From the NCBI RefSeq assembly GCF_023016155.1, contig NZ_JALKBG010000008.1, positions 746,501-810,500 on the forward strand: a stretch of DNA of 64,000 nt, given 5' to 3'. The stretch's first letter is position 1. Each line of letters begins with the position of its first letter. Positions 51,160 through 53,514 of this stretch are shown in pieces. The notes beneath the pieces are model-generated. The model saw only the letters and a list, made by a program, of their open reading frames with translations. It made no database searches and was not told the origin of the DNA. The DNA is from Aliiroseovarius sp. F20344 (GTDB lineage: Bacteria > Pseudomonadota > Alphaproteobacteria > Rhodobacterales > Rhodobacteraceae). Made by a program: the position numbers and the translations under genes.

Positions 51160-51867
51160 TTAGGGAAGCAGGGCGGTAATCTCAAGCGGGGGCAGAAGGG
51201 AAAGCAGGCCTTGGGTGGCGAAACCTATCAGGATGGCCCAGCCGAAACTGGCCAAAGTGCCGATGATCACATATTCGGCAGTGCGCTGGTCACGGCTTGC
51301 GGTGCCAAAACGCAAGATGGATTTGGCGGCAATCAGGAAGCCTACGCCAAGGGGCAGCTCTGCCAGGATCAGGACAAAGACCAGCCCACGCTCCAAAACG
51401 CCAATGGTCCAGCCGCCGCCCTTCAGTCCGTTGTTGCGGATCCGCATGGAGTGAGGCTGCATGAGAAGACCCACAGCAAATCCGCCGGCGCGGGTGGCAA
51501 GGATAAACCCTGTGGCGAGCGCCATAAGGGGCAAGGCGGTATCGGGCCATACGCCCCAGAGGCTTGGCACGTATGCCGCCACGGCCAAGAGGGTCAGCAG
51601 ATGCGCCGCTTGATCCCACAGAAAACCCGAAAGTTTCCGGAATCCACCCCATTGCTTCACAGCGTCGATGGCCAGATGGGCGAGGGCAAGCGCCAGCAGT
51701 TCGGGCGCGTCATAGACGCCCAGCGCGGCCTGAGCGGTGATCAGCACGATCAAAGCGTGAAGCAGCAAGACCGGAAAGCGCTGCTTGTTGTCGTTGATCC
51801 ATTTGGTTTGGAACACGAAATCAGCCAGCACATGGGCGAAGAGGAGAGCTGTGAAGGTTTCAATCAT
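51160..51867 (-). CDS. DUF3307 membrane protein (SatD partner)
   Basis: A 235-residue inner-membrane protein with about six hydrophobic segments. The N-terminal signature LLFAHVLADFVFQTKWINDN (His-x-x-x-Asp-Phe-x-x-Gln) identifies DUF3307, and further acidic or basic residues lie inside predicted helices (LAHLAIDAVKQ; FLWDQAAHLL), suggesting a metal site or a catalytic pocket within the membrane. Nothing is known of its reaction. It starts two bases after the satD stop, so the two proteins are translated together. From memory, DUF3307 and SatD genes pair in many phyla. Confidence 0.85.
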   Translation of the reverse strand: MIETFTALLFAHVLADFVFQTKWINDNKQRFPVLLLHALIVLITAQAALGVYDAPELLALALAHLAIDAVKQWGGFRKLSGFLWDQAAHLLTLLAVAAYVPSLWGVWPDTALPLMALATGFILATRAGGFAVGLLMQPHSMRIRNNGLKGGGWTIGVLERGLVFVLILAELPLGVGFLIAAKSILRFGTASRDQRTAEYVIIGTLASFGWAILIGFATQGLLSLLPPLEITALLP

Positions 51868-51869
51868 GT

Positions 51870-52511
51870 CTATAGCTCATGCATGTCAATGGCGCGTAAT
51901 GCGATCCAGATCGATTCAAACCCAGCGCCGTCCAGTGCCTTTGTGATGGCTTGACGAGATTTCCCCAAGCCCTTTGCGACTGAAGAGTAGCTGGGTATTT
52001 CTCCGGGTGCCAGCATTGGTAAAATGGCAGCGGCCTGCGCGGGGGTCCAGCTTTGAGAGATGTGGTCTACCAATACAAAGGCTGCGCTGACCGCTCCGAT
52101 GTCTTGATGGCTGAGTTCGACACTCACGGTTTTGGATTTCATACTGTCAAGAAGGCGACCGCTTTCAACAAACACCTGATCTGCGGACATGTTCAGATCG
52201 ATGCCCGGCTGGATTGGCCCAGCTTCGCCCTCAGCCACCGCCATAAATGTCGAAAACTCTTTGCCTTCGCATCTCAACGCTGCCCGAAAGGCCAATGCAG
52301 ATCGCAGTGCCAGTTCAGGCCGCGCAAGCCGTACCTGCCACCCATCCCCGCGTTGGCGGGTGAAGTGGAGGTCTTCTCCGTGCCATTCAGCCAAAGTCTC
52401 GGCGCAGTCCGAAAGCGCCTCAAATGCGCGCTCCAGATCCTCGGGCGACATCTGGGTCGAGCCGATGATGTCCCCGGTCAAGACAGCGATATTCGTCAGT
52501 TTTTCAGTCAT
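51870..52511 (-). CDS. SatD-family regulator: cyclase-like domain fused to helix-turn-helix
   Basis: A 213-residue soluble protein. The N-terminal 130 residues resemble a class III nucleotide cyclase: AVLTGDIIGSTQM (D14) and RQRGDGWQV (D56) lie 42 residues apart, like the two metal Asp residues of cyclases, and VESGRLLDSMKSKTVSVELS resembles the later N-x-A-A-R-L region. The C-terminal 174-200 segment (YSSVAKGLGKSRQAITKALD) is a helix-turn-helix. SatD was named for acid tolerance in streptococci, but its activity is not established. The start codon lies three bases from the first of four palindromes and no ribosome site is visible, suggesting a leaderless message and self-regulation. It is coupled to DUF3307. 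Confidence 0.82.
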   Translation of the reverse strand: MTEKLTNIAVLTGDIIGSTQMSPEDLERAFEALSDCAETLAEWHGEDLHFTRQRGDGWQVRLARPELALRSALAFRAALRCEGKEFSTFMAVAEGEAGPIQPGIDLNMSADQVFVESGRLLDSMKSKTVSVELSHQDIGAVSAAFVLVDHISQSWTPAQAAAILPMLAPGEIPSYSSVAKGLGKSRQAITKALDGAGFESIWIALRAIDMHEL

Positions 52512-52514
52512 GGT

Positions 52515-52622
52515 GCAACCATAATAGGTTGCGAATGACTAAATGCAACCTTTTTTGGTTGCGATTCAAGTTTAGCAACCCTTTTCGGTTGCCTTTCACG
52601 TTTCGCAATCCAAATGGGTTGC
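52515..52622 (-). promoter_or_regulatory. Four-palindrome operator array upstream of satD
   Basis: Four 18-bp palindromes GCAACC-N6-GGTTGC start at 52515, 52545, 52575 and 52605. Each is followed by a 12-base linker, so the period is exactly 30 bp. Sites 1-3 are perfect in both arms; site 4 has GCAATC on the left. Linkers and central six bases all differ, so this is not a simple duplication. The array spans nearly the whole gap between the SufT-type gene and satD. Thirty bp is close to three helix turns, so all sites face one side of the DNA. Confidence 0.92.
52521..52548 (-). promoter_or_regulatory. Putative satD promoter embedded in the operator array
   Basis: Read leftward: -35 TTGCAT (52543-52548, overlapping site 2), 16-base spacer, -10 TATTAT (52521-52526, the centre of site 1). 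Transcription would start at or next to the satD ATG. Confidence 0.55.
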
Positions 52623-52631
52623 GCTGGGCGT

Positions 52632-52997
52632 TTACATAAAGCCCAGCTCCAAACGTGCTTCGTCCGACATATTCTCCATGCCCCAGGGCGGTTCCCATGT
52701 CAGTTCGACATTGACCTGCTTCACGCCTGCGACTGGTTCGATCGCTTCGACCAGCCAGCCCGGCATCTCGCCCGCCACTGGGCAACCGGGGGCGGTAAGG
52801 GTCATGATCAGGTCGACTTCGTTCTGGTCGTTGATCTCGATCGTGTAAACGAGGCCAAGATCAAAGATATTCACCGGGATCTCGGGATCATAGACAGTGC
52901 GGCAGGCTTCAACCACTGCATCATAGAGCGGGTGTTCGACGCTGGACGGCTTGATCAGGGGTTCCCCTTCGATCCGTGTATCGGCTGTATTGGTCAT
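52632..52997 (-). CDS. sufT: SufT-like DUF59/MIP18 Fe-S assembly protein
   Basis: A 121-residue DUF59-domain protein taking part in Fe-S cluster maturation. The motifs YDPEIPVNIFDLGLVYTI, TLTAPGCPVAG (with the conserved Cys) and NVELTWEPPWGMENMSDEAR are typical of the SUF-linked group. The rest of the SUF operon (sufBCDS) is not in the window; the gene upstream, across 262 bases, is divergent. The SatD operator array begins 9 bases after its stop. Confidence 0.9.
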   Translation of the reverse strand: MTNTADTRIEGEPLIKPSSVEHPLYDAVVEACRTVYDPEIPVNIFDLGLVYTIEINDQNEVDLIMTLTAPGCPVAGEMPGWLVEAIEPVAGVKQVNVELTWEPPWGMENMSDEARLELGFM

Positions 52998-53259: not shown

Positions 53260-53514
53260 ATGACCACGGATATTGAAGGCCCTTCGAAACGAGGGTCGAT
53301 TAAAAAAAATCGGATTGATCAATTGTCGGAAGCGGCGCAGATGGTTCAGGGATTTGCCTATGACCTTGCCGCTTATCTCGATCCAATCACGACAACCGAG
53401 TTGATGTTGACCAGCAGAAGGCTGGAACGTCTGGCTGAGCGCTTGTCGAAAGAGCCCGATGTGCTGGCGGCGTTGGTCAAATTGGATGATGCCGGAGCAG
53501 AGGTTGATGGCTAA
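53260..53514 (+). CDS. Small hypothetical helical protein
   Basis: An 84-residue protein I do not recognise. It is mostly amphipathic helix: RIDQLSEAAQMVQGFAYDLA, then TELMLTSRRLERLAERLSKE and a short acidic end. There is no signal peptide, membrane segment or Cys. The ATG at 53260 has GGCGG close upstream; the preceding 260 bases hold no other gene. It is followed by tgt after 54 bases. It could be a small regulatory or structural protein; evidence for a function is lacking. Confidence 0.6.
   Translation: MTTDIEGPSKRGSIKKNRIDQLSEAAQMVQGFAYDLAAYLDPITTTELMLTSRRLERLAERLSKEPDVLAALVKLDDAGAEVDG

Follow-up and report, generated by a model that had tools for sequence, protein, structure and literature searches.

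We consider it likely that four evenly spaced palindromes in front of a satD-like gene of Aliiroseovarius sp. F20344 are the operator array of the protein which that gene encodes, and that they serve the negative autoregulation of its operon, a pair of genes for the SatD-like protein and a DUF3307 protein. The array, its conservation, the gene pair and the covariation between protein and operator can be read directly from the sequences compared. For two uncharacterised genes in the window, i.e. the whole stretch of 64,000 nucleotides that was analysed, this provides a testable regulatory unit, with predictions at base resolution for the binder, its sites, the key residues and the likely promoter.

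The four 18-bp palindromes follow each other at a step of exactly 30 bp and fill the leader of the operon, between the stop of a FeS_assembly_P (DUF59) gene (52632-52997) and the ATG of the satD-like gene at 52511, both genes being on the minus strand. Site 1, the closest to the start, lies at 52515..52532 and reads GCAACC-ATAATA-GGTTGC, so that TATTAT forms its centre on the minus strand. It is followed by site 2 (52545..52562, GCAACC-TTTTTT-GGTTGC), site 3 (52575..52592, GCAACC-CTTTTC-GGTTGC) and the distal site 4 (52605..52622, GCAATC-CAAATG-GGTTGC); as palindromes, none of these has a strand. An earlier, sequence-only reading of this DNA had described four copies of GCAACC-N6-GGTTGC at a 30-bp period. 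The positions and the period stand; the arms are perfect in three sites, and the fourth begins with GCAATC, a single mismatch.

At up to one mismatch these four sites are the sole matches in the window, and dinucleotide shuffles of the window give a mean of 0.37 matches, with four reached in 1 of 100 shuffles. Single sites at up to three mismatches are not enriched in the window (49 matches vs a shuffle mean of 45.5), therefore the cluster and its period are what stand out. When pairs of sites in tandem were searched for in the 3.36-Mb genome, with up to three mismatches allowed, the array's three overlapping pairs were recovered along with one 3-mismatch place elsewhere; the reversed control pattern has 3 matches per strand. 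Bar this one place, the tandem form is unique in the genome, which agrees with that reading. Single near-matches (up to two mismatches) number 447 on the forward strand of the own genome, vs 337 for the reversed control, and we draw no conclusion from this difference. A lone GCAATC-N6-GGTTGC is found elsewhere in the same genome (G000:C6:611989-612006, L001).

The 30-bp step had also been taken as three turns of helix that place four dimers on one DNA face. At 10.5 bp per turn, however, 30 bp corresponds to 2.86 turns (-51 degrees per step), and the relatives mostly have 29 bp (2.76 turns, -86 degrees) or 28 bp (2.67 turns, -120 degrees). None of these are whole turns, therefore a same-face design is unsupported and successive dimers would spiral slowly around the helix. 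This non-integral helical pitch speaks against dimers stacked simply on the same face.

Two genes follow the array on the minus strand. The satD-like gene (51870..52511) encodes the presumed array binder, a protein of 213 amino acids with a class III cyclase-like N domain and a C-terminal helix-turn-helix (HTH). The second gene of the operon (51160..51867, 235 amino acids) matches DUF3307 (PF11750, E 8.5e-15), and its product is, by hydropathy and a structure model, probably a multi-helix polytopic membrane protein. The model is confident (pLDDT 92) and has no fold match in the PDB (best E 0.25). An Fe-S_biosyn gene comes next. Beyond the DUF59 gene, an 84-residue ORF on the plus strand (53260-53514) has no Pfam or NCBIfam match, and the gene after it presumably resembles a tRNA-guanine transglycosylase.

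The N domain of the SatD-like protein, at about residues 6-126 (52134..52496, minus strand), is modelled with a class III cyclase-like fold. The 50 PDB matches listed by Foldseek are all cyclases, the best with E 4e-4 and probability 1.00; ten have E<=0.001, and the TM-score is about 0.4 over the whole query. A profile match to the cyclase Ma1120 has E 1.4e-4 and aligns Asp14 and Asp56 with the two Asp residues of Ma1120 that correspond to the metal-binding pair of class III cyclases, and each is kept in 155 of 156 relatives. R119 is found in 80 and F114 in 148 of the same 156 proteins, and the Ma1120 profile alignment ends before the catalytic Asn/Arg region. A fold search of a viral library gave one match at E<=0.001, a phage protein annotated as 'guanylate cyclase domain-containing'. 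The domain may be a nucleotide-binding sensor, possibly one that has lost catalysis.

The name 'satD', as used in the sequence-only reading, is a loose one. Searched against Pfam and NCBIfam, the window protein has no match at E<=1. Three of 24 relatives from the alignment, which were compared by E-value, match the SatD family PF16264 at E<=1 (best E 0.016), as do five of eight proteins from other classes at E<=0.0051, the best of these (E 8.2e-5) with 22.8 bits against a curated cut-off of 29, which none of the 33 proteins scanned reaches. The window protein would thus be, at most, distantly related to Pfam SatD.

How widespread are this protein and its array? SatD-like proteins were found in 86 of 394 genomes of the own family (two of them weak partial matches) and in 10 of the 21 genomes of the genus, the own genome being included in both counts. 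Named genomes yielded 200 relatives, the best 80 of which were kept, including Aliiroseovarius, Thalassovita, Yoonia, Celeribacter and Thioclava. The nearest six relatives are 67-74% identical to the window protein, and five of these six are Aliiroseovarius. Further afield, 9 of 385 genomes in a class sample match, three from the own family (the own genome among them) and six on the cyclase-like part only, and 15 of 299 in a phylum sample, where full-length matches also occur in other classes. One family of another class has SatD-like matches in 53 of 147 genomes. These other-class loci are probably gammaproteobacteria for the most part, because the helix of a named copy, on a Vibrio lentus plasmid, is nearly identical to that of some of these loci.

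For the comparisons below, the own group consists of the own-family loci and the 80 named ones, the latter with a Castellaniella MAG (L161) and a record titled 'Proteobacteria bacterium' (L139) among them. Of 195 loci, ten scored below 60 bits and were set aside except for L217, and removal of protein duplicates left 158 loci. An array was called wherever at least two related palindromes are spaced 28-31 bp apart. A finder tuned to GCAA-type arms called arrays in 65 of 86 loci and in 0 of 1720 shuffled leaders; one blind to the arm letters called them in 131 of the 158 unique loci, and in 1.2% of 3160 shuffles. With other spacings the blind finder matched 8 (20-23 bp), 34 (24-27 bp), 20 (32-35 bp) and 7 (36-39 bp) of the 158 loci, and part of these matches are probably the same arrays out of register. 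Arrays of two to five palindromes occur in 124 of 149 own-group loci. In other classes 33 of 36 loci have arrays, with 2.1% of 1800 shuffles and three to eight of the 36 loci at other spacings.

At least five of the 25 own-group loci without a called array show sites by eye or in an earlier scan. A set with divergent recognition helices seems to lack the array: L060, L073, L169, L175, L180, L185 and similar loci have helices of the KQT, QQT or RQM type and no array was found there. These may use another operator. Three satD-like genes, at G1113, G1145 and L101, have an in-frame stop or a frameshift and are possibly decaying copies.

The layout of the array is thus conserved in front of other satD-like genes, and the GCAACC letters, which were expected to be found there too, vary by species. 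The loci used for the covariation analysis have arms of the types GCAACC, GCACCC, GCAAGC, GCAAGT, GCAGGC, TCAAGC and GAAAGC, and further other-class arrays add GTAACC, ACAACC and TTAGCC. The step varies with class, being 30 bp where the fifth arm letter is C, as in the window (C5 arrays, 84 of 106 steps), 29 bp in the rest of the own group (86 of 115) and 28 bp in other classes (41 of 63). The arms had been thought to be fixed by selection. In fact they are alike within an array but change between species, in step with the protein.

The gene pair is conserved along with the array. Among the 145 own-group loci whose downstream sequence extends to 700 nt or more, 134 have a DUF3307-like ORF after satD on the same strand, as do 35 of the 36 loci from other classes. 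DUF59 precedes satD on the same strand in 141 of 149 own-group loci (in about 120 of these within 270 bp), and was found within the fetched stretch in none of the 36 other-class loci. The array therefore travels with satD-DUF3307 and not with DUF59.

Which protein binds the array? The variation of the arms allows this question to be approached through covariation. The recognition helix of the SatD-like protein is formed by residues 186-195 (RQAITKALDG; 51927..51956, minus strand), and residues 186, 187 and 191 of it covary with arm positions 1, 2 and 5. The data are 129 loci with a consensus arm, with L101 (frameshifted) and L104 (short, at a contig end) excluded. Entropy-normalised mutual information over 213 columns picks residues 186, 187, 188 and 191 as the best for arm positions 1, 2, 4 and 5, respectively, all of them in the modelled helix (mean pLDDT 96). 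For arm positions 3 and 6 the top columns, 83 and 49, lie outside the HTH and have weak scores. For arm position 5 column 89 ranks above 191 by z-score (26.6 vs 23.3), which is a mark of shared ancestry, and columns 184, 89 and 111 are likewise high by mutual information.

Because ancestry confounds plain mutual information, a tree-controlled scan was added. The tree was built from residues 1-170 only, and changes on the same branch were counted for 19,095 residue-base combinations. The pair of Lys191 and C5 ranks first (p 1.6e-9, Bonferroni about 3e-5), with 125 of 129 loci in agreement and six shared branch changes of seven and nine. It is followed by Arg186 and G1 (p 1.1e-6, Bonferroni about 0.02; 121 of 129 loci; five shared changes of seven and 11) and by Gln187 and C2 (p 2.8e-6, Bonferroni about 0.054; 121 of 129; four shared changes of four and 12). 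The four exceptions to K191/C5 are L093, L135 (R191), L126 and L165, and the eight to R186/G1 are L207, L149, L126, L041, L038, L134, L165 and L209. Dropping five arrays that were judged off-register lowered the p-values; this is not independent support, because four of the five dropped arrays were exceptions to the rule. Independent pairs across supported branches (treekit) gave, for K191/C5, three in the same direction, none opposite and one without difference (median p 0.25); they point the same way as the tree scan and are too few for significance, with other residue-base pairs weaker. K191 occurs with C5 in separate settings, e.g. L085, L170, L176 and L204, and L205, a congener of L204, has Q191 with GCAAGT arms.

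The resulting rule was recorded before 27 further other-class loci were fetched, a few other-class loci having already been seen by then. On 26 further arrays it is correct at position 1 in 22 of 23 testable cases, at position 2 in 25 of 26, and at position 5 in 23 of 26, the last with a half-of-arms threshold that was set after the further arrays had been displayed. Two of the three misses at position 5 have Arg191. A side rule that paired E187 with G2 failed in both of the two further cases. Contacts of Arg with G and of Gln with A are textbook ones. Natural variation thus appears to yield a three-position code, in which R186 would read G1 and Q186 A1, Q187 C2, and K191 C5.

The SatD-like protein is therefore very probably the binder of the array, and the satD-like gene is, as far as covariation can tell, preceded by an operator that its own HTH reads. 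This agrees with the sequence-only reading, which had named the adjacent HTH protein as the natural candidate; the covariation, and a rule upheld on later-fetched loci, now speak for it. It is very unlikely that another DNA-binding protein uses the array and that satD is merely its target. The neighbouring position of the HTH gene is circumstantial, and binding by the SatD-like protein is a prediction, both of which leave some room for a different binder. That said, such a binder would explain neither why the arm letters follow residues 186, 187 and 191, with K191 and C5 changing together on six branches, nor why this rule was upheld on loci fetched later, and at this sensitivity the genome has no other tandem sites, bar the 3-mismatch place. 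It would also sit poorly with an exchange in the genus. The congener L252 (G396) has DUF59 and DUF3307 DNA that is 85.5-89% identical to that of L251 and L253, with an array and a satD of another type between them, this satD being 40% identical to the window's in amino acids. In this congener, regulator and operators were exchanged as one unit.

Covariation says nothing on the direction of regulation, for which the position of the promoter is informative. In the window, a putative -10 element, TATTAT (52521..52526, minus strand), forms the centre of site 1, and a putative -35 element, TTGCAT (52543..52548, minus strand), lies 16 bp before it, mostly in the inner arm of site 2. Scored with a matrix of -10 base frequencies, the proximal centres of 50 own-group C5-class arrays average 5.68 bits, with 80% at 4 bits or more, and sites 2-4 average 2.48, 1.01 and 0.80 bits. 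The 39 C5 arrays with a 30-bp proximal step have the consensus TTGCAT-16-TATAAT, with the ATG about 9 nt past the -10. This preference is clear in the C5 class only: proximal and second sites score alike in non-C5 own-group arrays (n=72; 2.44 vs 2.31 bits), and other-class arrays show no proximal preference (n=33; 2.94 vs 3.44 bits). A generic promoter scan gave no match at its threshold. The predicted transcription start is no more than about 3 nt from the ATG, which would make the transcript leaderless. The array thus likely overlaps the promoter in the window's C5 class, a feature that the earlier reading missed. Since the start-proximal site covers the -10-like element in this class, the SatD-like protein probably represses its own operon.

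Could the same protein bind the array and activate instead, with distal sites that recruit polymerase and only the proximal site limiting output? We regard this as unlikely, with two observations in its favour. Distal sites are retained though the proximal one alone would occlude the promoter, and in other classes the distance between the start codon and the beginning of the proximal site ranges from 18 to 215 bp, with no -10 preference at that site. In the window's class, however, the placement of site 1 over the -10 and of an arm of site 2 over the -35 is the arrangement of a repressor, and the covariation lends activation no help, as it is silent on direction.

The predicted promoter also bears on the idea that the leader repeats function as RNA hairpins, i.e. 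as an attenuator, a riboswitch or processing sites. Arms of 6 bp could fold in RNA, and arm mismatches in other-class arrays are more often G-T than A-C (39 vs 23), as pairing in RNA would favour. In the own group this bias is reversed (60 vs 115), so there is no consistent G-U excess, and no Rfam match was found. Moreover, with the likely promoter in site 1, sites 2-4 would be outside the mRNA that it produces. We judge hairpins to be extremely unlikely, and autorepression by the SatD-like protein remains our preferred reading.

The operon has a patchy distribution. Of the 21 genomes of the genus, 10 have the complete set behind DUF59, i.e. array, satD and DUF3307, and the other 11 lack all three at that place; in the latter, Fe-S_biosyn follows DUF59 by 66-164 bp and no array was found. 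Two loci without satD host a palindrome just past the DUF59 stop: in L250 it is GCAACCCAATCGGGTTG, like the distal site of the sister species, and in L254 it is decayed and resembles the distal site. These remnants look as if satD-DUF3307 had been deleted.

Some relatives are on mobile elements. A satD-like gene is found on four plasmid records, in one of which, from Vibrio lentus, the finder called an array. This copy (L280, plasmid p1) has three perfect TTAGCC-N6-GGCTAA sites at 28 bp before a satD-DUF3307 pair. On a Sphingomonas insulae plasmid (L279), the satD-like and DUF3307 genes adjoin Pycsar effector family and E2 domain-associated cysteine-rich proteins, with an ImmA/IrrE gene upstream and no array found. 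Evenly spaced repeats, an HTH binder and gene relatives on four plasmid records raise the possibility of an iteron- or centromere-like array that organises DNA, as in partition systems. Against this, the window's contig is chromosomal-sized, the array lies in front of satD, the gene pair has no ATPase partner, there are just two to five sites, and only one of the four plasmid relatives has an array by the finder. A role of this kind is extremely unlikely, and we continue to favour the autorepressor.

The neighbourhoods were also examined for signs of a defence or type II toxin-antitoxin module, the idea of a defence island having arisen from the Pycsar protein beside the L279 pair. Neither window protein matches a PADLOC family at E<=1. 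The 128 ORFs that neighbour 20 other-class loci (20 of 53 matching genomes) hit 36 families, vs 52 for 139 control ORFs taken 50 kb away on the same contigs (100 kb in one case; the longest of 140 control ORFs was omitted), and a defence-island reading was not adopted. Many of the neighbour matches listed look, by name, like generic helicases or cysteine desulfurases. Among the neighbour matches listed there are also single ORFs of the families PycTM, RTasSLATT, 2TM effector and type IV restriction enzyme, which makes a link to defence conceivable. An ORF at one of the loci L283-L302, near a further satD-like gene, matches PycTM with E 1.4e-36, the second such neighbour after L279. As for a phage origin, neither protein has a match at E<=0.01 among 50,697 phage records; PMC8504454 lists a jumbo-phage ORF as similar to a DUF3307 protein.

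We propose the following mechanism for the operon. A dimer of the SatD-like protein would bind each 18-bp palindrome through its C-terminal HTH, and neighbouring dimers would pack at a fixed pitch of 28-30 bp. With the -10 covered by site 1 and the -35 by an arm of site 2, a bound array would bar RNA polymerase from the leaderless satD-DUF3307 promoter; the sites further upstream would add cooperativity and make the response sharper. The cyclase-like domain may sense a nucleotide or nucleotide-like ligand, by which binding would be relieved or strengthened.

A wider reading is possible, though rather improbable in our view: that the satD-DUF3307 pair forms a self-contained module with patchy inheritance, whose degenerate cyclase-HTH protein senses a nucleotide and restrains a membrane protein via its self-operator array. 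Loss of the regulator would then be harmful, and its specificity would diverge and be exchanged together with the operators, resulting in insulated 'immunity groups', a term that likens these mutually insulated specificities to those of phage repressors. PMC11323703 reports that satD of S. pyogenes is essential in emm1, emm28 and emm49 strains, yet accessory, being found in 178 of 249 genomes. If the genes are related and the wider reading is true, the harm of losing the regulator would fit this combination.

The results raise further questions. Why does a chromosomal autoregulator change and swap its specificity? What does the cyclase-like fold ahead of the HTH sense? The recognition code, which was upheld across two or more classes of the phylum, may also be useful for the design of insulated repressor-operator pairs.

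How does this system compare with known ones? The sequence-only reading knew of no described regulator with this operator. Likewise, among the matches listed from the open-licence literature, we found no operator for SatD or DUF3307, and no regulator role or operator for Pfam SatD (secretion and acid tolerance D). Some relatives of the window protein are weakly similar to that family, PF16264, with all proteins scanned below the curated cut-off. The class III adenylyl and guanylyl cyclases, such as Ma1120 and Rv1900c, share the fold of the N domain and both metal Asp residues; the window family differs from them in a variable R119 and in its fusion to a small HTH, and its cyclase function is putative. 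The mycobacterial proteins Rv0386, Rv0891c and their kin also unite a cyclase domain and an HTH in one polypeptide, and some of these fusions are larger proteins of the LuxR/ATPase type, in contrast to the window protein with its 213 amino acids and an array of its own operators. In phage lambda CI, TetR and toxin-antitoxin operons, a repressor gene is preceded by palindromes that overlap its promoter. The present arrays differ from these tandem-operator autorepressors in having up to five sites and a class-specific pitch of 30, 29 or 28 bp. Finally, HTH residues of the IclR family have been correlated with operator base positions by mutual information, according to PMC8222616. Our system belongs to another family, with one tandem self-target found in the genome searched, arrays of fixed pitch, and a recognition rule that was tested on loci fetched later.
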